Part shown: in pieces, positions 3,848-14,941 of the stretch
Position numbering within the stretch: position 1 is the stretch's first letter
Layout of the letters: the number at the start of each line of letters is the position of its first letter
Source: Akkermansiaceae bacterium
Lineage (GTDB): Bacteria; Verrucomicrobiota; Verrucomicrobiia; Verrucomicrobiales; Akkermansiaceae
NCBI GenBank assembly: GCA_013041925.1
Contig: JABDRB010000026.1
Location: forward strand, 62,001 to 126,000
DNA: 64,000 bases
Direction of reading: 5' to 3'
The notes under the pieces: model-generated
What the model saw: the letters and a program-made list of their open reading frames with translations, nothing else
The model's database searches: none
What the model was told of the DNA's origin: nothing
Translations under genes and position numbers: made by a program

Positions 3848-4288
3848 TTAATTATTAGGAAATACATTCGTCTTCATCCAGTATCGCCCCATCTTGCCGA
3901 CCACATCGAGATAGGACTGAAATCCCATCGGTTTGACGACGTAGCTATTGGCTCCAATGCGGTAAGCTGAGGTGACATCCGAGTTTTCCGAGGATGAGGT
4001 CAACACGACGACGAGAAGATGCTTCGTTCGTTCGTCTGCCCTGATTTCACGTAAAACATCCATACCATCAAGCTTCGGAAGCTTCAGGTCAAGCAGGATC
4101 AACTTCGGCTGCTCTCTCACGTCCCGCCCTTGATACGCACCCGTGGCGAAAAGGAAGTCGTGAGCTTCCTGCCCGTCGGAAACATGGCAGAGGTGGCTTG
4201 CAAGATCCCATTTTTTCAAGGCGCGGATCGTGAGCTCCGCATCATGCGGGTTGTCTTCAACGAGGAGGATTTCTAGATCTTCTTTCAT
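3848..4288 (-). CDS. Single-domain response regulator, Rcp1-like
   Basis: A 146-residue stand-alone receiver domain. The acidic pocket is in LLVEDNPHD, the phosphoacceptor is Asp67 (LILLDLKLP), a switch Ser/Thr lies in VVLTSS and the conserved Lys in VVKPM. There is no output domain. Its ATG overlaps the stop of the upstream kinase gene as ATGA, which indicates translational coupling and a dedicated partnership. Small receivers of this kind paired with PAS or phytochrome-type kinases (Rcp1, CheY-like) usually act as phosphate shuttles or bind a protein target. The frame is open further upstream to 4351, but that would lie inside the kinase gene and add residues that do not fit the fold. Confidence 0.92.
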   Translation of the reverse strand: MKEDLEILLVEDNPHDAELTIRALKKWDLASHLCHVSDGQEAHDFLFATGAYQGRDVREQPKLILLDLKLPKLDGMDVLREIRADERTKHLLVVVLTSSSENSDVTSAYRIGANSYVVKPMGFQSYLDVVGKMGRYWMKTNVFPNN

Positions 4289-7200
4289 GATGGTTGATGA
4301 GGTAGAGTGAAGTAAAACGTGGCGCCGTGATCGATTTCTGATTCCGCCCAAATGCGGCTACCGTGGCGCAGTACGATGCGCTCGACGAGCGCCAATCCGA
4401 CGCCAGTGCCTGAAAATTCCTCCTGACTATGCAGGCGTTGGAAGACGCCGAACAACTTGTCAGCATGGCGTGGGTCAAATCCGATCCCATTGTCTTTGAT
4501 GTAATAAATTTGACCCTTCTCGCCATTCGACTTCGCTCCGATTTCGATCTCACCTATTTCGCGCCCGCCGGTAAACTTGATCGCGTTGCTGATGAGGTTG
4601 GTCCACACCTGCCGAATGAGGGACCCCGTCCCATAGGCGGGCGGGAGGGTGTGGAGGTTGAGGCGTAGCTTACGCTCCGGATGACGATCAACCAACTCGT
4701 CAAAAACATCTCGTGCCATGGTTTCCATGTCGATGGGTTTCAGTTCGATCGGGTGGCGTCCTAGCCGGGAAAAGGCGAGCAGGTCATCGATGAGCAGACC
4801 CATCCGCTGGGCCTCGCTGTGAATCACACCCAGCATACGCCGCCCCTCACCATCCATTTTCCCAGCATAATCTTCGAGCACCATGCGCGAGAAACCACTC
4901 ACCGCACGCAAGGGGGCGCGCAAGTCATGGGAGACGGAATAACTAAAGGACTCCATTTCTTTGTTGGCGGCTTCCTGCGCTTCGGCACGCACTTCAAGTG
5001 CGGCGTTGAGCTCTCGAATGCGAGCTTCGGCACGCTGGCTCTGGGTCGCGTCATAATTAATCCCTACCATCCGCTTCGCTTTCCCGTTCGAATCCGTAGC
5101 TATCATCTCAGAGCCTCGGATCACCCGCACGTCTTCATCCGTAGCCCGTGTAATCCTGAACTCGCGCTGACCGCGGCCTCGAGATTGCACCGTATACTGC
5201 AGTTGTTCCTCCTGCTCCGCCAAGTCCTCAGGCAACACCGCAGCAGCCCAATCCGAGTAGTCCATCCTCCCTTGCGGACTGGGAGGCAAGCCGTAAATCT
5301 TAAACATCTGATCATCCCACGTCACCTCATCGGTTGCTAAGTTCCACTCCCACACTCCGATCTTACCCGCCTCCGCCGCCAGCCTAAGGCGCTCCACAAC
5401 ATCTTGCAGTTCCACCTCCATGCGCTTGCGCTTGGTGATATCGGTGCTGATCATCATAAACTGGACGGGCTTGTTATCTGGTCCGAGGAAGGGGACGATG
5501 GTGCCGTTCACCCAGTAGGTCGACCCGTCTTTGCAACGGTTTTTGATTTCTCCCTTCCACGTCCGTCCGGAGATAATCGTCTCCCACAAATCGCGAAAAA
5601 AAGCTTCAGAGTGATACCCGACATTCACGATCCGGTGACTCTGGCCAATCAGCTCCTCGTTTGAATACTTGGAAATCTCGCTGAACTTGTCATTGGCGTA
5701 GAGGATCGTCCCCTCTGTGTCGGTGGTCGCAACGACGGAGTGCTGGTCGAGCGCCGACTTAAAGTCATTGAGCGTGGCGTTGGCGGACTGTAACTCATTG
5801 GTCCGCTCTTCCACTCGCTGTTCCAGCTCCGCGTGCAGCTTGTGGATTTTTTGCTCCGAGCGCTGATTCTCAATGGCGATGCGGATCACCTGCACGGCCC
5901 GCTCGATCACTTCCCTTTCGGCAGCGTCCGGGTGATACCGCTCGCTATGATAAATAGCACAAGTGCCGAGGACTTCCCCTTGGTTGCTGTGGATCGGTGC
6001 GCTCCAGCAGGTGTGCAGTCCGTGTTTCAAGGCGATCTCGCGGTGATCTGACCACAACGGATCGCTGGCAATGTCAGCCACCTCAATCTGTCGATCCCCC
6101 TGTGCCGCTGTGGCCCACAATCCGACGCCAGCGCCGACGACCATGCCATCAATGGCACGATTATACGACTCCGGTAAGCTGGGGGCTCCGCCGTGACGCA
6201 GGTGGAAGCCATCGTCATCAAGTATGAGCACTGAACAGAGCACCCCAGGCATCAGATTTTCCATGCCGAGTATCAACACGTCGAGCTGCTGGCCCAATGA
6301 TGACTCACTGACGATGGATTCCATGGCCTCTTTTTCCCACGCCAACAAACGCTGGTTCAGCTTGCGTTCGGTGATATCGGTGTGAGCGACAATGGCTCCG
6401 CCTCCTTCTCCTGTCAGCTTGATTACCTCCATCACAAACCAGCGGGGCTGTCTGGGACCGTTGCACGGGTATTCCATGATGAAACGTGGCTGTTTTCCCG
6501 ATAACACAGACAGCACGCCGGCAACGGCATCCTTGGCACTCGATTCCGATTCAGAATCCAACGTTTTACAGGCGTCTGGATAGTTGACACCCACGCCGAT
6601 TGCTTCGACCCCTGGGTTACCGTTTTCACGGGCAAAGCGAAGCCAAGGCTCGTTCACAGCGACAATGATTCCCGACTGATCCAAGACGGCGATGTGGGCT
6701 GGAAGTGAATTCAAAATAGCCCGCTCAAATGCCTCGTTCGCCCGCAGTTCGTCTTCCATTTGAATGCGCTGGGTGATGTCAAAGGCGGATCCGACCAAAC
6801 CCGTAATTTCGCCACTGCTCGAGCGGATCGGCACCTTGCTGATCAGCCGAACCTGTAGATCGCCATTGTCCAATATTCTCCGTTGCTCGCTGTGCAACTG
6901 ATGCTTACCGCTTAAGACTTCGAGCTCTTCGGCCCGAAATTCTGCAGCGATTTCGGGTGGATACAAATCGGCATCGGTCTTACCCACCAAACTCTCTGGG
7001 GAATCTAGCCCCATCAGGTTCGCACAGGTGACGTTGGCCAACACAAATCGGCTCTCGCAGTCTTTCACAAAAACCGCCGAGGGCAAGATGTCGACCAGGG
7101 TGCGCAGCAGGTTGCGCTCTTCTGTTAATTTCTCCTCCGTATGCTTGCGCTCCGTGATGTCACTGAGAGCGATGCGGATCTCCTCATTACCTGCACCATC

Positions 7201-7704
7201 ATGGGCAAGGGTGAGCACCAAACGCGCCCACACTGGCTCTCCCTGATCGCGCACCAAGCGCAACTCACATGATTGCATTTCACGTGTCTTGAAAAGTTTT
7301 TTGCGAGCCAGATTAAAAATACGTTCGTCCGCATGAAAAAGAATGTGGCTGATCGATCGATGAATCGGCACCCTCCGTTGCACGCCCAGCAGGGTGGCGG
7401 CCCTGAGGTTAACTTGCTGAATAAGCCCCATGTCGTTGACCGTCACATATCCCACTGGGGCCCTCTCATAAAGATCGATATAACGTTCTTGCGAGGCCAC
7501 CAATTCAGCTTGTTCGAGATACAGCGACTCGTTTTCTGTCTCGAGTTCGATTTGACGCACACGCATTTCGTGGATGAGTCGGCGGATATCCTCGGGCGCA
7601 AGCGAATCAAGGTTTTCAGGCAAATCATCGCCCCGCCCGCGCGAGGACTCTTCCGCATGCCCTCGCAATCCTGATGTGTTAGAATGGTGCCGCCGATGCC
7701 TCAT
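4285..7704 (-). CDS. Cytosolic multi-PAS/GAF histidine kinase
   Basis: 1139 residues with no membrane segment. In order I see PAS (about 67-185), PAS (195-310), PAS (322-440), GAF (455-610), a coiled coil, PAS (640-760), PAS (770-890), HisKA with phosphoacceptor His926 (SVSHDLRAP) and an HATPase_c domain with an N-box (NLISNAIKFTG) and G-boxes (DNGIGFD, GTGVGLALV). The C-terminal half resembles bacteriophytochrome-type kinases. Five PAS domains and one GAF suggest integration of several small-molecule, redox or light cues, but no chromophore-binding cysteine can be assigned. The gene is coupled by ATGA overlaps to the receiver gene downstream and to a 56-codon ORF upstream. Confidence 0.93.
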   Translation of the reverse strand: MRHRRHHSNTSGLRGHAEESSRGRGDDLPENLDSLAPEDIRRLIHEMRVRQIELETENESLYLEQAELVASQERYIDLYERAPVGYVTVNDMGLIQQVNLRAATLLGVQRRVPIHRSISHILFHADERIFNLARKKLFKTREMQSCELRLVRDQGEPVWARLVLTLAHDGAGNEEIRIALSDITERKHTEEKLTEERNLLRTLVDILPSAVFVKDCESRFVLANVTCANLMGLDSPESLVGKTDADLYPPEIAAEFRAEELEVLSGKHQLHSEQRRILDNGDLQVRLISKVPIRSSSGEITGLVGSAFDITQRIQMEDELRANEAFERAILNSLPAHIAVLDQSGIIVAVNEPWLRFARENGNPGVEAIGVGVNYPDACKTLDSESESSAKDAVAGVLSVLSGKQPRFIMEYPCNGPRQPRWFVMEVIKLTGEGGGAIVAHTDITERKLNQRLLAWEKEAMESIVSESSLGQQLDVLILGMENLMPGVLCSVLILDDDGFHLRHGGAPSLPESYNRAIDGMVVGAGVGLWATAAQGDRQIEVADIASDPLWSDHREIALKHGLHTCWSAPIHSNQGEVLGTCAIYHSERYHPDAAEREVIERAVQVIRIAIENQRSEQKIHKLHAELEQRVEERTNELQSANATLNDFKSALDQHSVVATTDTEGTILYANDKFSEISKYSNEELIGQSHRIVNVGYHSEAFFRDLWETIISGRTWKGEIKNRCKDGSTYWVNGTIVPFLGPDNKPVQFMMISTDITKRKRMEVELQDVVERLRLAAEAGKIGVWEWNLATDEVTWDDQMFKIYGLPPSPQGRMDYSDWAAAVLPEDLAEQEEQLQYTVQSRGRGQREFRITRATDEDVRVIRGSEMIATDSNGKAKRMVGINYDATQSQRAEARIRELNAALEVRAEAQEAANKEMESFSYSVSHDLRAPLRAVSGFSRMVLEDYAGKMDGEGRRMLGVIHSEAQRMGLLIDDLLAFSRLGRHPIELKPIDMETMARDVFDELVDRHPERKLRLNLHTLPPAYGTGSLIRQVWTNLISNAIKFTGGREIGEIEIGAKSNGEKGQIYYIKDNGIGFDPRHADKLFGVFQRLHSQEEFSGTGVGLALVERIVLRHGSRIWAESEIDHGATFYFTLPHQPS

Positions 7705-7871
7705 CGCTTATCTCCTCGGGTTAGCCGTTCATTCGTCACCATGTCAACCCACTGAACGCCATACGACTGAGCGGCTTTGGATCGGCTGAATAGATCCAGC
7801 ACATCCAAATCCCGCTTCGGGTTACGGTTGTTTTCTTCTCGGGTCACTGCACCACTCCAATCTAACTTCAT
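7701..7871 (-). CDS. Small ORF (56 aa) coupled to the kinase gene
   Basis: An ATG at 7871 opens a 56-residue frame that starts MKLDWSGAVTREENNR and ends TRGDKR. Its TGA overlaps the kinase ATG as ATGA, the same arrangement used between the kinase and the receiver gene. The product is polar and charged, with no signal peptide, membrane segment or recognisable domain. No clear Shine-Dalgarno sequence precedes it. It could be a genuine small protein, a leader that couples translation of the kinase, or a chance frame. The exact ATGA junction is the main argument for it. Confidence 0.4.
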   Translation of the reverse strand: MKLDWSGAVTREENNRNPKRDLDVLDLFSRSKAAQSYGVQWVDMVTNERLTRGDKR

Positions 7872-8209
7872 ACACACATGCTAAGAATATACTTTTTGTT
7901 GGGTTTTTAAAAGAAAAAACATAAAGCCAAACTTTCAAAAAGACTAACGAAAGTAAACATTTCACCATTCTTATCATTGCTGAAATCTGTATAAAACAAC
8001 TTCTATCATAAGCATACCCTAGGATATTTTTTAAAAAAATAGCTCCGCCTGAATAAAAATATCAGTTAAAAAACCCGCCCCTGCATCGTAAATTAATATG
8101 AATCCATCGCCCCAAAAAAACAAAGAGGCCGATTTACGCCCGCGCTACCCTACGATATCCAGACGATAAAATTCAACGAATCCAAGCCAGCCCGCCTAGC
8201 CCGTATCGA
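7872..8209. other. AT-rich intergenic region
   Basis: About 340 bases between the hydrolase gene and the signalling block, markedly more AT-rich than the flanking genes. I see no credible ORF or RNA gene. It should hold the minus-strand promoter of the signalling block and the end of the transcript from the 8.2-13.1 kb operon. T-rich tracts near 8085-8125 could help termination, but I see no strong stem. Confidence 0.6.
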
Positions 8210-8959
8210 TCACCGCGCCGCCAGTGCGGTCAACCATGTGACCACAGCATCCGTCGCCTGCTCCTTGTGCGCTGGTTGATTAAAACTATGATCCGCTCCG
8301 TCAACGCACACCACCTGAACGGCGTCACCATGCATCTGCTGCACCTGCTCGGTGTCACGCGGAAGAACCACATCATCGGCTGACCCATGCAGCAAAATCC
8401 AAGGGGCGGTGACGCAGCGAGCTTGCTCTGCGATGCTCTGGATCGTCTCGCAGAGGTCCGTCATAAAGGCGGACGACAGCGGGCAGCTTTCCTCCTCCCA
8501 CATCAATCCGTCATCGGGTGTCTCCTGACCAAATTCTGTTTTGGCAAAAGCCTTGGTATCGATCATACCCGCCAGCGACACCAGTGCGCTGATGCGCGGG
8601 TCCTTGGCCGACTGAATCACGCCGACGGCAGCTCCCATGCTGTGGCCGATATAACCAATATGTGAATAGGAGGAGGCGACGGCGCTGAGCACGGCATCGA
8701 GATCGCCCACTTCCTTCGTGATCGTGGCATCCCGAAAATCGCCATCCGACTGACCATTCCCAGCAAACGAAAACCGGAGTGTGTCAAAGCCCGCGGCATT
8801 GAGGGCTGCTGCAGTATCTACGATAAGTGGGCGGTCTTTATCACCCGTCACGCCGTGGCCGAGCACGACGATCCAATCAGATTGTCGAAGTCCCCCTGCC
8901 CCGCGGGCCCATGTGGAGTCGAGGGTTTCCCCCACGTTGTTTTTGATGATTGATTGCAT
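8210..8959 (-). CDS. Alpha/beta hydrolase, dienelactone hydrolase/acylesterase-like
   Basis: 249 residues with no signal peptide. The nucleophile elbow is GHSMG with Ser107, the acid is Asp195 or Asp196 (GSADDVV) and the base is His224 (DGADHSF), a complete catalytic triad. The HGVTGDKDRP segment near residue 35 is the usual oxyanion-hole strand of the family. Family members cleave esters, lactones or acyl derivatives; the substrate cannot be predicted. It is the last gene of a four-gene minus-strand group, 37 nt after the dehydrogenase gene, so it may remove an acyl group or open a lactone formed in the same pathway. Confidence 0.85.
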   Translation of the reverse strand: MQSIIKNNVGETLDSTWARGAGGLRQSDWIVVLGHGVTGDKDRPLIVDTAAALNAAGFDTLRFSFAGNGQSDGDFRDATITKEVGDLDAVLSAVASSYSHIGYIGHSMGAAVGVIQSAKDPRISALVSLAGMIDTKAFAKTEFGQETPDDGLMWEEESCPLSSAFMTDLCETIQSIAEQARCVTAPWILLHGSADDVVLPRDTEQVQQMHGDAVQVVCVDGADHSFNQPAHKEQATDAVVTWLTALAAR

Positions 8960-8996: not shown

Positions 8997-9887
8997 CTAG
9001 GTGCGACCTTGAAACGTCAACTCGGCGACACCCGATTTATCAAGTTCCCCTTTTCCTAGGGTGACCAGCCGGGTGAATTGATTCCACGTGGCCTGCGCCA
9101 ATGGGGTGTCGACCCCTTGCTCCGCAGCGAGGGCGAGCGCGATACCCGAATCTTTGGCCGCGTGGGCAGCCGAGAAATAACAATCGTGATCCCGGAGGAT
9201 CATATCTTCCGCATCCGTTTCAAGGACACGTGAGTTGGCTCCAGTCTGGCTGAATATGTCACACAGCATTTTGAGGTCGATACCGAGAGCATCCCCGATG
9301 CCGAGCCCCTCCGCAAGGGCTGCCGTGTTGATGTTCATCACCATATTCACCAGTGCCTTCACTTCAGATGCCTTACCTGCGGGCCCGACGAAGTGCAGCG
9401 CCTTACTCAGATCATCCAGCAGCGGCTGATTGGCATGAAAAACACTCTCCTCGCCACCGACCATAAGGAAAAGCTCGCCATTCCGTGCCTGCGGGATACT
9501 TGATGCCATGCAGGCCTCAAGACACTGCGCCCCCACCTTAATGGCGGCGGCTTCGACCCTCTGATGCACGGCGGGTGTCAGCGTCGCGCAGTTGATAAAG
9601 ACACACCCGTCAGCACCCGCCAATAGATTGTCGTCACCAAAGAAAATAGCATCCATCGCACGATCATCCGTAACCACCGTCAGGATGACATCCGCATCGG
9701 CGGTAAGCTCAGATAGCTTGGTATAGGCGGTGGCACCGAGCTCGTCAGCCAACTCCGCGGCCACCGACTCGTTTACATCCAATACGGCTGATACGTGGTA
9801 TCCTTTCTCATGCAGACAACGGGCCATGTTCCCACCCATCCGCCCGAGACCGACCAGTCCAATTTTTCTATCTTTCATCGGATTCAT
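8997..9887 (-). CDS. NAD(P)-dependent beta-hydroxyacid dehydrogenase (3-hydroxyisobutyrate/tartronate semialdehyde reductase family)
   Basis: 296 residues. The Rossmann motif GLGRMGGNMA lies near the N-terminus, and the catalytic lysine is Lys177 with Asn181 (SEVKALVNMVMN). The substrate loop that usually reads DAPVSGG is replaced by EACMASSIPQAR (about 124-135), so the substrate probably differs from that of characterised GarR, GlxR or MmsB enzymes. Family members oxidise or reduce the hydroxyl of small beta-hydroxyacids or semialdehydes. The gene starts 4 nt after the TIM-barrel gene, and the pairing recalls hyi-glxR, where an isomerase feeds a reductase. Start at ATG 9887; an in-frame ATG at 9878 is possible. 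Confidence 0.88.
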   Translation of the reverse strand: MNPMKDRKIGLVGLGRMGGNMARCLHEKGYHVSAVLDVNESVAAELADELGATAYTKLSELTADADVILTVVTDDRAMDAIFFGDDNLLAGADGCVFINCATLTPAVHQRVEAAAIKVGAQCLEACMASSIPQARNGELFLMVGGEESVFHANQPLLDDLSKALHFVGPAGKASEVKALVNMVMNINTAALAEGLGIGDALGIDLKMLCDIFSQTGANSRVLETDAEDMILRDHDCYFSAAHAAKDSGIALALAAEQGVDTPLAQATWNQFTRLVTLGKGELDKSGVAELTFQGRT

Positions 9888-9891
9888 CGGT

Positions 9892-10743
9892 TTACGCTTC
9901 GGCGACGGCTTCGGCCCAGATTTTCTTCAGGTCGTTACCCAGCACGATGGCATCTTGCCAACTGTCGGGGAAACAACTCAGCCCGTAGCCAAATTTTGGG
10001 CCCAGTTCGGGCATCACCCAGAGTTCGTTTTGAGGACGTGGCCCGCTCAACCAATGGTCAAACCCCTGACGCGCAAAGGGACGTATCTCTTTGTATTCAG
10101 GTGAAAAATCCCCCTCACCATCCGTGATCGGGACTTGGCAGTGGTGACCATTGAATGGGCGCATGTGCCAGAGAGTCGACTGCTGAAACATAGGCACATG
10201 CTCAAAAAGGCGCTCGATATAATGACTTGCATCCAGGTGCCTGAAGCAGGCGGGGTGCGAATAATCAAAGTTAATCTTCGGGTAATACCCCTTGGCCTTT
10301 TTAAACCCTTCCGCAATGGCGTAGGTTTTCTCTGGCGTTTCCGTGCACGTGTCACGGTGCATCTCCAAATGCATATCCGCACCTTGACGCTCCGCTTCCT
10401 CCATAAGGGCGACGGTCATTTCAACCCCCTCTTCGATCGACGTGCTGTGATCGCCTAACTGACAATTCATCGGACCGTTATCAATTTCCAAACCCTCACG
10501 GATCAAGGATTCAAATTCTTCTTGGTTTTGGGTAATAAAGGCCGCACCAAACCGGAGCCCGTATCGATCGAGTGTTGTTTTTAGTTCCGGAGTCTCTGCG
10601 GGACAGGTGAAGGCATCAAAGCCGGCGGCCTGCACCGCGCTGATCTGCTGGTCCAAACTCCACGGCTCCCCGTCGTCGTTGATTTGATTCCAAAGTGTCC
10701 AGTGGTTGATGATGATCTTAAGATCGGGTGTGTCGTCGGCCAT
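9892..10743 (-). CDS. Xylose-isomerase-like TIM-barrel protein
   Basis: 283 residues with the layout of the AP endonuclease family 2 / sugar-phosphate isomerase-epimerase fold. Metal-ligand candidates follow the family order: Glu in HLEMHRDT, Asp and His in NFDYSHPA, His in LWHMRPFNGHH, Glu in MPELGP. No signal peptide is present. Homologous folds include hydroxypyruvate isomerase, IolE dehydratase and MocC. The exact activity cannot be assigned; an isomerase, epimerase or dehydratase acting on a sugar, cyclitol or keto acid is the reasonable range. It sits second in the four-gene operon, 62 nt after the oxygenase fusion and 4 nt before the dehydrogenase. Confidence 0.82.
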   Translation of the reverse strand: MADDTPDLKIIINHWTLWNQINDDGEPWSLDQQISAVQAAGFDAFTCPAETPELKTTLDRYGLRFGAAFITQNQEEFESLIREGLEIDNGPMNCQLGDHSTSIEEGVEMTVALMEEAERQGADMHLEMHRDTCTETPEKTYAIAEGFKKAKGYYPKINFDYSHPACFRHLDASHYIERLFEHVPMFQQSTLWHMRPFNGHHCQVPITDGEGDFSPEYKEIRPFARQGFDHWLSGPRPQNELWVMPELGPKFGYGLSCFPDSWQDAIVLGNDLKKIWAEAVAEA

Positions 10744-10805
10744 AGTCGTTGTCGGTAATTAGGAGGGTGTGTGTTGTGAATCGCAATGTCGGTTCCGGTC
10801 CTGAT

Positions 10806-13103
10806 TTAAAATACGTCATAGGCGATCTGGTCGTCACTGACGCCGAGGTCATGAAGCATCTTCGTGCAGGCCTTGATCATCATCGGTGGCCCGCAAAGAT
10901 AAAACTCGACCGCGCTAGGTTGAGGATGATTTTCTAAATAATGAATCAAGACCACTTCATGAATAAAGCCGGTGTATCCGTCCCACGGATCGTCGTCCTC
11001 TGGGTTCGAAAGCGCAAGGTTGAAATCAAAATGTGGATGCTCGTCCGCTAATTGTTCAAAGTAGTACTGATAGAAAATTTCCTGTTGCGATCGAGCACCA
11101 TACCAGAAACTCACCTTACGCGATGTTGATTCGTTTTCAAACAGGTGGGCAAGGTGCGCACGCAACGGAGCCATGCCAGCCCCCCCACCGATGTAAACCA
11201 TTTCCTTCTGGGTCGGTTTGATGTGAAAATCACCAAAGGGCCCGATCGCCGTGACCGTGTCTCCAGGGTTCAGGCTGAATACATAACTCGACCCCACACC
11301 AGGCAAACAATCCTGCCCAGGTGGTGGGGTGGCGATACGCACATTAAACTTCAGCTGGCGCTCGGTGACGCCATTACTCGCCAGCGAGTAGTTGTTACGC
11401 CGACCTGACTCGGCGTTGCTGGCGATTAATTCATCGACATGTTGATTCCTCCAGACGGTGGTATACGGCTCAGGGATATCGAAGTCACTGAAGCGGATCT
11501 GCTCATAGGCCGGGATATCAATCTGCATGTAATCCCCCGGTGTAAACTCAATGTTTTCCTGATCATCGACCGGCTCCAACACCAACTCCTTGATAAAGGT
11601 GGAGACATTGTTGTTGCTCACCACACGCAGCGTGTAGGTTTTTTGCTGCCGTGCACCATCGCCACCAGCCTGCGCGACATTCAGCCAGATCCGCCCCTTC
11701 CGCTCCTCAGCGGGATAAGTCGCTAAACCACGGCAGATCGGTGCGCGCGCTGGTGACCCGTCCTCTAAGTTAAATCTGCCATTATGCTTCGGGCATTCGA
11801 TGATCTTCCCTTTAACCAATCCCTCAGATAGGTGGGTGTTACCATGCGTGCAGACGCCATCCGTCACGTAAATTTTGTTTTCCGCATCACGATACAGAGC
11901 AAAGGTCTTTTTACCGTGGTCGAATCGAATCACATCTTCCATGCCAAGCTCTGCTCCATCACAAATCTCCAACCAGCCATCGGTATCAGGCTGGGCGTCC
12001 GATCGCTGAAACTCCTCATCGATCCACTCCCGAGGCTCAGGCAACTTACGCTTGGCGTAATAGGTCGGATCTTTGAGCTGCTTGAGCAGGGTGGGGAAAA
12101 TCTCTTTCCACGCCGATAAGATGGAGGGGTATGGCGGAGGACAATCATCTTTGATCACCTCATGCAGCTTCGGCAGCGCATGGTAAGGAACCAGCGGAAA
12201 GATGTGATGCTCAACATGGTAATTCATGTTCCAGTAGATGAACCGGCTGATCGGGTTCATGTAGACGGTGCGGCAGTTGAGTCGGTGGTCGAGCACATTC
12301 TCCGCAAGACCGGCGTGCTGCGGCGTGTTGTGGATAATCATCAACCAAGTGCCAAATAATTGGGGCAACACAAAAAGAAAAATCGGCACCCAACTCTGCA
12401 GGATCACGGCTGAGCCAATCACCAATAAATAAAACATCAGATAAATCCGTGCCCGTAGGTAGATCTTCGTAAACTCCGTTTCGGGTATAAACGTTTTTTC
12501 ATCGGCCGTCATCCTTCCAAATGCGTGCCGGAGGATTTTAGGGAAAAACGTCCGGTATCCACCGACGTTAAATAAACTCAGAAAGTGCGCCCACATATCG
12601 GGTGGTCGGGGCACCTGGATCTCGGGATCACGCCCCACGATGATGGTGTCACTGTGGTGCCGTGTATGACTCCATCGCCAAACCACCGATTCACGCATGA
12701 CCATCAACGACGCCACTTCATAGAGCGCGCTGTTCATCCAATCGGTGCGGAAAGGTGTCCCATGTTCACACTCGTGCCATCGCGAATCCGAGCTCGTTCC
12801 ATAAAGGGTCGCGTAAATAAAATAAGGGATCACCACCCACCATGTCCCCCAGAGCAACGCCGTCGCATAGCCAGTGAGACACAGGAGCGAAAACAGAATC
12901 AGGGTGTCGCGAATCGCGGGACCATTCCTCCGCTCCAAAAGCTTCCGCAAGGTCGCACGAGGGATCTGCGGCTGATACCAATCTGCCTCCGCCAAACCAA
13001 GCTCAACCGCACGGTCCGCATTTTCTCCAGTCAGGCTGTAATCGAGAACATTGGGAGGCCGCATCAGCATCGGCGCCCCATGGTGGTGGTCGTGGTCCAT
13101 CAT
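10806..13103 (-). CDS. Three-part fusion: membrane desaturase/hydroxylase, Rieske domain and NqrF-like reductase
   Basis: 765 residues. Residues 60-345 are a membrane fatty-acid-desaturase-type diiron domain with histidine boxes HECEH (110-114), HTRHH (146-150), HNTPQH (258-263) and HVEHH (296-300), plus hydrophobic segments between them. Residues about 375-475 are a Rieske domain with Cys418, His420, Cys437 and His440. Residues 485-765 match the C-terminal part of NqrF: FAD site RNNYSLAS (569-576), NAD site GGGAGMAPLR and CGPPMM (737-742). NqrF itself carries a plant-type ferredoxin; here a Rieske domain takes its place. The protein thus contains a whole NADH-FAD-[2Fe-2S]-diiron electron chain. 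The likely reaction is O2-dependent hydroxylation, desaturation or demethylation at the membrane. Confidence 0.9.
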   Translation of the reverse strand: MMDHDHHHGAPMLMRPPNVLDYSLTGENADRAVELGLAEADWYQPQIPRATLRKLLERRNGPAIRDTLILFSLLCLTGYATALLWGTWWVVIPYFIYATLYGTSSDSRWHECEHGTPFRTDWMNSALYEVASLMVMRESVVWRWSHTRHHSDTIIVGRDPEIQVPRPPDMWAHFLSLFNVGGYRTFFPKILRHAFGRMTADEKTFIPETEFTKIYLRARIYLMFYLLVIGSAVILQSWVPIFLFVLPQLFGTWLMIIHNTPQHAGLAENVLDHRLNCRTVYMNPISRFIYWNMNYHVEHHIFPLVPYHALPKLHEVIKDDCPPPYPSILSAWKEIFPTLLKQLKDPTYYAKRKLPEPREWIDEEFQRSDAQPDTDGWLEICDGAELGMEDVIRFDHGKKTFALYRDAENKIYVTDGVCTHGNTHLSEGLVKGKIIECPKHNGRFNLEDGSPARAPICRGLATYPAEERKGRIWLNVAQAGGDGARQQKTYTLRVVSNNNVSTFIKELVLEPVDDQENIEFTPGDYMQIDIPAYEQIRFSDFDIPEPYTTVWRNQHVDELIASNAESGRRNNYSLASNGVTERQLKFNVRIATPPPGQDCLPGVGSSYVFSLNPGDTVTAIGPFGDFHIKPTQKEMVYIGGGAGMAPLRAHLAHLFENESTSRKVSFWYGARSQQEIFYQYYFEQLADEHPHFDFNLALSNPEDDDPWDGYTGFIHEVVLIHYLENHPQPSAVEFYLCGPPMMIKACTKMLHDLGVSDDQIAYDVF

Positions 13104-13247: not shown

Positions 13248-14717
13248 CTAGCCTTCGAGCTTCTCGCGCTTCCCCGATTTTGCCTTAGCCGGCACGGGGT
13301 GATCGATATCCAGATCGTCACCCATCTCTTTTTGCAGCACCTTGAGCTCTTTCTTAAGCTCTATGAGCTTGACCGCATACTCGGGGTGGTCAGACAAATC
13401 ATGCATTTCGTGTGGATCCTTCACCGTGTTGTAAAGACGGAGTTTTTGAGCGGTCGGATAAGAAATCAACTTCCAAGACCCCTTGGCAATCATTCGCTGC
13501 GAGTTGATATACTTCCCATAAATACGCTCATACTGGATCTTCTTTGTCCCCTTGATCAAAGGCCACAGACTATGAAACTCGACCTGCGCCGGCTTTTCGA
13601 CACCAGCAAACTCCAACGTCGTCGCCATCGCATCCTGAAGGTAGATGGGCATCTCCAACCTCCTCCCCGGCTCGATCCCAGGACCCGTGATCATCATGGG
13701 AACACGCATGCTATGATCATACATACTCTGCTTCCCCAACAACCCATGATGACCACACGCCAATCCATGGTCGGCCGTAAAAATCACATAGGTATCGTCC
13801 GCCATACCCGTCGCTTCCAGCGCATCCAAAATCCGCCCAATCTGCGCGTCCATATGTGTGATGATCGCAAAGTATTCTTGGCGATGCACCTTGACCGCAA
13901 ACTCTGTCCGAGGAAAGGGTGCCAACTTCTCATCACGCAGCCTAGGCCCACATCCCATCGCATCTTTATACGGGTAAAGATCGAGAAAATTCTCCGGCAC
14001 CTTCATCTTCTCAAGCGGATACATGTCAATGTATTCCTTCGGCGACTGACGCGGGTCATGGGACGCGTTAAACGCAAGATACATAAAAAACGGTTGCTCG
14101 TCAGACTTCGCTTGATTGAGAAAATCAATCCCGTGGTTAGCCACCACCTCACTCCAATGCGTGCCGCCCTGCCAGAACCCACCCTGGCTTTTATCCCACG
14201 GTTTCCAACCGTTCTCGTAGTCCTCCTTATTCTTCGGCCGATGATACCCCGACCCTTTTGGCATGCCACCGCGTGGGTCTTTCACCACATCAAAGCGTGG
14301 CTTACCTGGAACATGCCATTTTCCCGTCATGTAGGTTGTGTATCCAGCCCCCTTCATCATCTCCGACCAGTGCGGCTTTTCTTTCACCGCCCTCTGGGCC
14401 CGATTGACAAAGGCCCCACTGTTGAGCATCGCGCGGCTCGCCACACAAACTGCCCCATTCCACGCTCCCATATTGTAGGCCTGCGAGAATGTCGCCCCAC
14501 CCATCACCAGCCGATCCAAGTTCGGCGTCTTACAGTCGGTCATCCCATACGACCCAATACTCTCAAAGGTCATATCATCGGCAAAAATAAATAAAATGTT
14601 AGGCTTGGCTCGTGGGCCAGATTTCTCAGCATTCACATCACCTGCAACCACCCCCAGCATGGCAACGGCCACCATCAGACCAACCCACCCCTTTTTTTCT
14701 ATCATCAAGCAACGCAT
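13248..14717 (-). CDS. Exported type I sulfatase
   Basis: About 489 residues from ATG 14717 with a hydrophobic signal segment (about 10-28); the frame is open to 14903, but the upstream part has no secretion signal. The alkaline-phosphatase-fold sulfatase domain starts at PNILFIFADD, with metal ligands Asp47 and Asp48. The formylglycine site is Cys91-Val-Ala-Ser-Arg95, the C-x-A-x-R variant of the canonical C-x-P-x-R. A later TADHGLACGHHG block completes the metal site. Such enzymes remove sulfate esters from polysaccharides. Gene sits 144 nt upstream of the oxygenase fusion on the same strand. An ATG at 14705 is an alternative start. Confidence 0.9.
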   Translation of the reverse strand: MRCLMIEKKGWVGLMVAVAMLGVVAGDVNAEKSGPRAKPNILFIFADDMTFESIGSYGMTDCKTPNLDRLVMGGATFSQAYNMGAWNGAVCVASRAMLNSGAFVNRAQRAVKEKPHWSEMMKGAGYTTYMTGKWHVPGKPRFDVVKDPRGGMPKGSGYHRPKNKEDYENGWKPWDKSQGGFWQGGTHWSEVVANHGIDFLNQAKSDEQPFFMYLAFNASHDPRQSPKEYIDMYPLEKMKVPENFLDLYPYKDAMGCGPRLRDEKLAPFPRTEFAVKVHRQEYFAIITHMDAQIGRILDALEATGMADDTYVIFTADHGLACGHHGLLGKQSMYDHSMRVPMMITGPGIEPGRRLEMPIYLQDAMATTLEFAGVEKPAQVEFHSLWPLIKGTKKIQYERIYGKYINSQRMIAKGSWKLISYPTAQKLRLYNTVKDPHEMHDLSDHPEYAVKLIELKKELKVLQKEMGDDLDIDHPVPAKAKSGKREKLEG

Positions 14718-14941
14718 ACCCGCTTCATAACCCCGACCCCGACCACCATACAGAAAAAAGAACAACCGAACCCACTTCGCGAGAAAAGGATTCGCCCCCC
14801 CATGACGCACCACGACCCAATCATCGGCTCCCAAACCACCCCCAAAGACCTGAGCGAACGCGCGTCGGTGCAGATTATGGGTAGAGGGAACCCTTCCTCC
14901 CAAACAAAAGGCTCAGAGGTGCATCTGAGCCTGAAAAGGGA

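Follow-up and report, generated by a model that had tools for sequence, protein, structure and literature searches.

A single-chain MocD-type membrane diiron oxygenase with a Rieske domain and an NqrF-type reductase: a candidate O-demethylase of methylated sugars

Introduction

The window, the whole 64,000-nucleotide stretch of Akkermansiaceae DNA analyzed here, contains an open reading frame in which an oxygenase appears joined to its own electron-transfer chain. This locus raises three questions: whether the three parts belong to one genuine polypeptide, what reaction and substrate such an enzyme would serve, and whether its reductase half instead marks it as a piece of Na+-NQR.

Domain organization and conserved residues

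The gene lies on the minus strand, running from 13103 to 10806, with no internal stops. A sequence-only reading of the window had given these coordinates exactly, leaving the strand unstated, and its claim that one ORF carries diiron, Rieske, and NqrF-like parts is borne out by the ORF bounds, Pfam, and NCBIfam:

10806–13103, minus strand: three-domain oxygenase, 765 amino acids (ORF list, Pfam, NCBIfam, and an alignment with 75 further three-domain proteins)
12120–12845, minus strand: MocD-like membrane diiron domain (Pfam FA_desaturase, residues 87–328, 1.5e-34)
11712–11975, minus strand: Rieske [2Fe-2S] domain (Pfam Rieske, residues 377–464, 3.3e-16)
10809–11642, minus strand: NqrF-type FAD/NAD reductase (NCBIfam nqrF equivalog, residues 488–765)

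From the N-terminus, Pfam and NCBIfam place an FA_desaturase-family diiron domain first, the Rieske domain second, and the NqrF-type reductase last. The predicted oxygenase and electron-transfer domains all lie within one chain, as the self-sufficient oxygenase class requires. The start codon is uncertain: the beginning of the ORF reads MMDHDHHHGAPMLM, and the earliest invariant residue in the alignment is D21. The conserved stretch of the diiron part covers approximately residues 21–356, extending beyond the Pfam limits. For residues 377–475, the highest-scoring Rieske model is that of the MocE family (MocE_fam_FeS, TIGR02377), with a score under the NCBIfam cut-off (115 vs. 136 bits). In the reductase half, NAD_binding_1 matches residues 638–747 (Pfam, 5e-17), and FAD_binding_6 scores slightly below the Pfam cut-off (20.4 vs. 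21.1 bits).

The earlier reader had also reported that all key ligands are present, and the alignment of 76 three-domain proteins agrees. The diiron histidine boxes (HxxxH at 110/114, HxxHH at 146/149/150, H263, and HxxHH at 296/299/300) and the presumed Rieske ligands (C418/H420/C437/H440) are invariant in 76/76 proteins, as are the FAD residues Y572/S573, the NAD-site glycines G639–G641/G643, C737–G738–P739, and the terminal F765. R569 is kept in 66 of the 76, so that 27 of the 28 counted ligand and motif residues are invariant, a degree of conservation that rules out chance. An AlphaFold model of the oxygenase has a pLDDT of 84 and a pTM of 0.62, the latter leaving the domain arrangement unsettled; in fold searches with the full model, the rows shown are matches to the reductase domain.

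Homology to split mocD and mocE genes

In rhizobia, rhizopine catabolism is served by split mocD and mocE genes together with a different reductase. The sequence-only reading had proposed an analogy with the separate MocD, MocE, and MocF proteins. For the first two, the resemblance is in fact homology: the first ~476 residues share about 50% identity with rhizobial split mocD- and mocE-type genes, and the diiron domain alone is 52–58% identical to the mocD-type genes of 31 rhizobial loci. Both systems have a membrane diiron oxygenase and a Rieske ferredoxin of the same descent. For the reductase, the analogy fails. In the one rhizobial locus scanned (L085), the gene at the MocF position encodes a Pyr_redox_2 plus Reductase_C protein of the disulfide-reductase type, whereas the window protein carries a fused NqrF-type module in place of the third separate gene. 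Because the reductase family differs, the fused enzyme is not simply MocD, MocE, and MocF joined end to end.

The two systems also share a TIM-barrel gene close by. In published accounts (PMC5132102 / PMC3538637), TIM-barrel epimerase homologues lie near rhizobial mocDEF clusters, and a mocDEF cluster of Pseudomonas syringae adjoins a xylose isomerase gene.

Distribution and phylogeny

We searched 384 genomes of the class for the same architecture. Some match to any of the three domains occurs in 239 of them, and in 46, as judged by hand from the match tables, a single gene contains all three. Two three-domain copies are present in each of four genomes (G160, G111, G024, and G058), and the copies in G102 and G351 are interrupted. 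Among named genomes, the best 80 loci divide into 49 that are three-domain genes or fragments thereof and 31 rhizobial loci with split genes. Outside the class scan, three-domain loci occur in Verrucomicrobiota, Bacteroidota, Acidobacteriota, Gemmatimonadota, Ignavibacteriota, Kiritimatiellota, and one Verminephrobacter. A cultured marine member of the Flavobacteriaceae, Winogradskyella sediminis (L041), has a homologue. An assembly join or frameshift between the domains is rejected on these grounds, since the architecture recurs in many independent assemblies and the window copy has no internal stop.

Among plasmids, 329 records give a match, none of them reaching 80% coverage of the query at a single site, so three-domain proteins were not seen there; no PHROGs family was found at E <= 1e-5. 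A literature search, which excluded most subscription journals and is hence weak as a negative, returned no paper on the MocD–Rieske–NqrF architecture and no characterized protein that has it.

We built a diiron-domain tree of 62 rows, comprising 34 of 85 three-domain sequences (hand-picked), all 10 without a reductase, 10 of 31 rhizobial sequences (random), and eight of nine distant homologues (L179 omitted), using a quick search with SH-aLRT support only. The three-domain rows group together to the exclusion of the rhizobial rows (SH-aLRT 99), and the whole MocD-type family is set apart from the eight more distant class homologues (SH-aLRT 100). Two MocD–Rieske fusions without a reductase, L157 (G253) and L158 (G312), are nested within the three-domain branch; this placement looks like later loss of the reductase.

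The window operon and its TIM-barrel partner

The oxygenase is followed on the same strand by three closely spaced genes, which together with it would form an operon of oxygenase, TIM isomerase, hydroxyacid dehydrogenase, and hydrolase:

9892–10743, minus strand: partner TIM-barrel protein, 283 amino acids, 62 bp downstream of the oxygenase (ORF list, model)
8997–9887, minus strand: 3-hydroxyisobutyrate/tartronate-semialdehyde-reductase-like dehydrogenase, 296 amino acids, 4 bp downstream of the TIM gene
8210–8959, minus strand: alpha/beta hydrolase, 249 amino acids, 37 bp downstream of the dehydrogenase; last gene of the putative operon
13248–14903, minus strand: sulfatase, 144 bp upstream of the oxygenase

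The dehydrogenase scores under the NCBIfam equivalog cut-offs shown, and membership of the sulfatase in the operon is doubtful. The gene order oxygenase–TIM–dehydrogenase–hydrolase is common to the window and loci L031 and L148. Further downstream on the same strand, at 4285–7704, lies a gene for a 1139-amino-acid protein that, judged from reading its sequence, looks like a multi-PAS sensor histidine kinase.

The TIM-barrel partner has no Pfam or NCBIfam family match. In an alignment of 39 relatives, E127, H129, R130, D160, S162, H163, H193, R195, and E246 are found in every row; the model has a pLDDT of 90, and its closest structures are IolE and D-tagatose 3-epimerase, at a TM of about 0.6. 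The relatives make up an IolE-like TIM-barrel family in which an E-D-H-E set is invariant; of the four members scanned, none has a Pfam match.

For the neighborhood tallies, 90 loci were used (83 distinct at 97% identity), leaving out L001–L030, which are short copies of other loci, and L168, which repeats the L111 region. Six loci that match all three domains are also absent from the neighbor counts, as the ORF caller gave no usable frames for them: L057, L073, L078 (where the matches lie in broken frames), L120, L142, and L146. ORF calling was naive, with antisense frames selected where the locus is GC-rich, and the 24 neighbor profiles were made from the same loci that they afterwards labeled. 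With these definitions, at least one same-strand gene lies within 250 bp downstream in 70 of the 83 distinct loci, and a TIM relative is the next downstream gene in 35, the window included (the copy in L152 is broken). The downstream context is otherwise varied: 13 loci lack a same-strand gene within 250 bp, some of them at a contig edge, and in 21 the downstream same-strand gene matches none of the 24 profiles. In the flavobacterial loci, the downstream genes are instead those of a creatininase-family protein and an aldo-keto reductase.

Across the class, a TIM relative at E <= 1e-20 occurs in 42 of the 46 carrier genomes (counted from hand-read tables) vs. 50 of the 338 others (Fisher 1e-25, uncorrected for phylogeny). 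It lies within 2 kb of the oxygenase in 25 of the 46 carriers, counted by eye, and is elsewhere or absent in the rest. A TIM relative also adjoins mocD-/mocE-type genes in one Acidiphilium plasmid and in two class genomes with split genes; the 31 rhizobial loci yielded none.

Gene neighborhoods and substrate clues

Genes near the oxygenase were counted within 7 kb in the 46 genomes from hand-read match tables, and the Poisson probabilities that follow assume uniform placement and independent genomes. Aldose 1-epimerase is found this close in 17 of the 46 genomes (17 of 84 matches; 0.43 expected, 1e-21), RhaM in five (6 of 56 matches, of which G237 contributes two as fragments; 0.29 expected, 6e-7), and FdhD in six (6 of 29 matches; 0.14 expected, 1e-8). 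The FdhD loci of G035 and G222 are near-identical, and counting five events still gives 4e-7. Across the class, FdhD is moderately commoner in carriers (29/46) than in other genomes (140/338, p = 0.007), with no match in 17 of the 46 carriers. None of the three genes lies near the window copy, and the FdhD of the window genome is on another contig; what links the window to the pathway is its TIM protein and the arrangement of genes that it has in common with L031 and L148.

Individual loci bring these functions together. In L148, FdhD and an FdhF/YdeP-type oxidoreductase come after the same four genes as in the window; the family of the oxidoreductase was named via its homologue in L153. In L134, an aldose 1-epimerase gene lies on one side of the oxygenase and an alpha-L-rhamnosidase gene on the other, and the genes for RhaM, FdhD, and a molybdopterin oxidoreductase are also near. 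The oxygenases of L128 and L136 adjoin molybdenum-cofactor genes and FdhD, and in L152, the stretch directly upstream encodes an ABC importer, seemingly of the sugar type. Unsystematic inspection of the loci recognized no formaldehyde dehydrogenase.

The mutarotases beside the oxygenase suggest an aldose as the substrate, and the formate dehydrogenase functions beside it suggest a one-carbon product. L-rhamnose was considered as the specific sugar and dropped. RhaM is enriched, and alpha-L-rhamnosidases (PF17389) are not clearly so, with two within 7 kb and a third just outside against ~0.7 expected in a rough hand count by eye; the claim is limited to methylated aldoses.

Two other neighbors were noted. 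A URO-D/MtaA-CmuA-like protein (one member scanned) is encoded near the oxygenase in 12 three-domain loci (e.g., L133, L043, and L050). A PanB (ketopantoate hydroxymethyltransferase)-like protein lies near rhizobial mocD-/mocE-type genes in several of L080–L110 and at 10704–11519 (plus strand) in L180, and might take up a released C1 unit.

Proposed reaction and alternatives

Taken together, the domains and their surroundings make it probable, in our moderately confident judgment, that the window protein is a self-sufficient, NADH-dependent membrane diiron monooxygenase of the MocD lineage that O-demethylates a methylated sugar. From the domain anatomy, we infer a self-sufficient electron path in which NADH would reduce the FAD of the NqrF-type module, electrons would pass to the Rieske [2Fe-2S] center and on to the membrane diiron center, and O2 would be activated there. 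The substrate would be an O-methylated sugar, namely an aldose, and in some clusters probably a 6-deoxyhexose. Hydroxylation of its methoxy carbon would yield the free sugar and formaldehyde; mutarotases and the isomerase/epimerase encoded by the partner TIM-barrel gene would then take over the freed sugar, and formate dehydrogenase would be the end point for the C1 unit. Removal of a methyl group is favored by the neighbors together with the labeling in PMC2593844 of MocD as the rhizopine oxygenase that converts 3-O-MSI to SI, i.e., an O-demethylation.

The same sugar-gene neighborhood would suit any sugar oxidation, and the enzyme might instead hydroxylate a carbon of a sugar or cyclitol without removing a methyl group, for which the 17 carriers without an FdhD match also speak. 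We regard this self-sufficient hydroxylase as unlikely, though it is the alternative that survives best: the FdhD, FdhF/YdeP-type oxidoreductase, and molybdenum-cofactor genes of several loci suggest a one-carbon product, and the split relative MocD is labeled in PMC2593844 as turning a methyl ether into the demethylated compound.

Less probable still is a demethylase whose substrate is a cyclitol ether or a methylated amino-cyclitol, like rhizopine or methyl-inositol, rather than an aldose. The MocD/MocE homology, the presence of IolE among the nearest structures of the TIM partner, and the MocA-type oxidoreductases and KduI/IolB-family gene of some loci are all consistent with it, but the enriched neighbors, aldose 1-epimerase and RhaM, act on aldoses.

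A lipid desaturase or hydroxylase carrying its own electron supply is suggested by the FA_desaturase family of the N-terminal domain. It appears very improbable, given that no fatty-acid gene family is prominent among the annotated neighbor clusters, which are part of all clusters, and that the family stands apart from the eight more distant class homologues in the tree.

The reductase half and its relationship to NqrF

The reductase half resembles NqrF closely. Residues 488–765 match the nqrF equivalog at 328 bits vs. a cut-off of 295 (NCBIfam), and the model of residues 485–765 superimposes on the NqrF structure 7qty with a Z of 39.8 and an rmsd of 1.2 Å over 278 residues. The FAD/NAD half is alike in the two proteins (46% identity, Foldseek).

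The normal partner domain of the NqrF reductase half is a plant-type ferredoxin. In the 765-amino-acid protein, Fer2 has no Pfam match at E <= 0.01, and a Rieske domain is present instead, so the replacement of the ferredoxin by Rieske that had been read from the sequence is confirmed; unlike NqrF, the window protein also has an added oxygenase. NqrA serves as a marker of Na+-NQR. NQRA_N has no match in the window's own genome and one marginal match in the 46 carriers (24.7 bits vs. a cut-off of 25, counted by eye).

This type of reductase also occurs in another single-chain oxygenase, unrelated to the first, which is encoded at 6150–8930 (plus strand) of L167, in genome G342. This 927-amino-acid protein combines a Rieske non-heme oxygenase (NdmA/DdmC-like, VanA_C) with a flavodoxin, a plant-type ferredoxin, and an NqrF-type reductase. 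No full-length relative was found among the matches listed in 188 class genomes, and a search of viral contigs with this protein gave no relative of any length. When the 188 genomes were probed with it, the matches listed at E <= 1e-60 to its reductase part were three-domain proteins. That these matches fall only in three-domain proteins, together with the near-absence of NqrA, suggests that the reductase type is seen here as a part of oxygenases.

The idea that the window protein is a misnamed NqrF, i.e., a Na+-NQR subunit with an altered N-terminus, draws on the whole protein scoring above the nqrF cut-off and can practically be dismissed, given the missing Fer2, the complete oxygenase fused in its place, and the near-absence of NqrA, the sole Nqr subunit searched. 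Since the cut-off is passed via the reductase half, a name taken from the nqrF model alone would hide the oxygenase, and a protein above this cut-off can be an oxygenase.

Comparison with other oxygenases

Single-chain membrane diiron oxygenases are already known from AlkB fusions; the present protein differs in lineage, carrier, reductase, and probable substrate. In one such fusion, a ferredoxin reductase and a ferredoxin precede AlkB, and the expressed protein is reported to be active (PMC8918992). Like the window protein, this three-domain AlkB is a membrane diiron hydroxylase with covalently attached electron carriers. The order differs, the AlkB protein having its reductase and ferredoxin at the N-terminus, whereas the window protein begins with the MocD-type domain and places the Rieske and NqrF-type domains behind it. 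The diiron domain matches the AlkB structure 8f6t at a profile E of only 0.17, and the structure lists are filled by the reductase domain.

In function, the proposed activity is alike to that of a P450 system of marine bacteria, which, as described in PMC10033563, converts 6-O-methyl-D-galactose of porphyran to the free sugar and formaldehyde by oxidative demethylation. That system belongs to a different enzyme family, using a heme P450 with a separate ferredoxin and ferredoxin reductase. If the proposed reaction is correct, a widespread single-gene enzyme removes methyl caps that hinder the use of algal and plant sugars, and does so with a membrane diiron center rather than a P450. It would link MocD, a protein of rhizopine use, to general carbohydrate turnover, and would offer a single-chain system in which to follow electron flow from NADH through a Rieske center to a membrane diiron site.

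A wider synthesis is tentative, and we think it rather unlikely to hold in full. The NqrF reductase would be a plug-in module of single-chain demethylases in bacteria without Na+-NQR. On one occasion it would have joined a MocD/MocE-type membrane oxygenase, and the resulting sugar O-demethylase would have spread between phyla; on another, it would have joined the Rieske non-heme oxygenase, with flavodoxin and ferredoxin, of the 927-amino-acid L167 protein. Within the window operon, the methyl group would be released as formate, perhaps by way of a formyl ester that the hydrolase opens, and the TIM companions would constitute a sugar isomerase family, so far undescribed, that serves specifically the demethylated product.

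The L152 cluster, which holds a three-domain oxygenase and the ABC importer, also contains a cytochrome P450 gene (2846–4105, plus strand) that could be an alternative agent of such demethylation chemistry.
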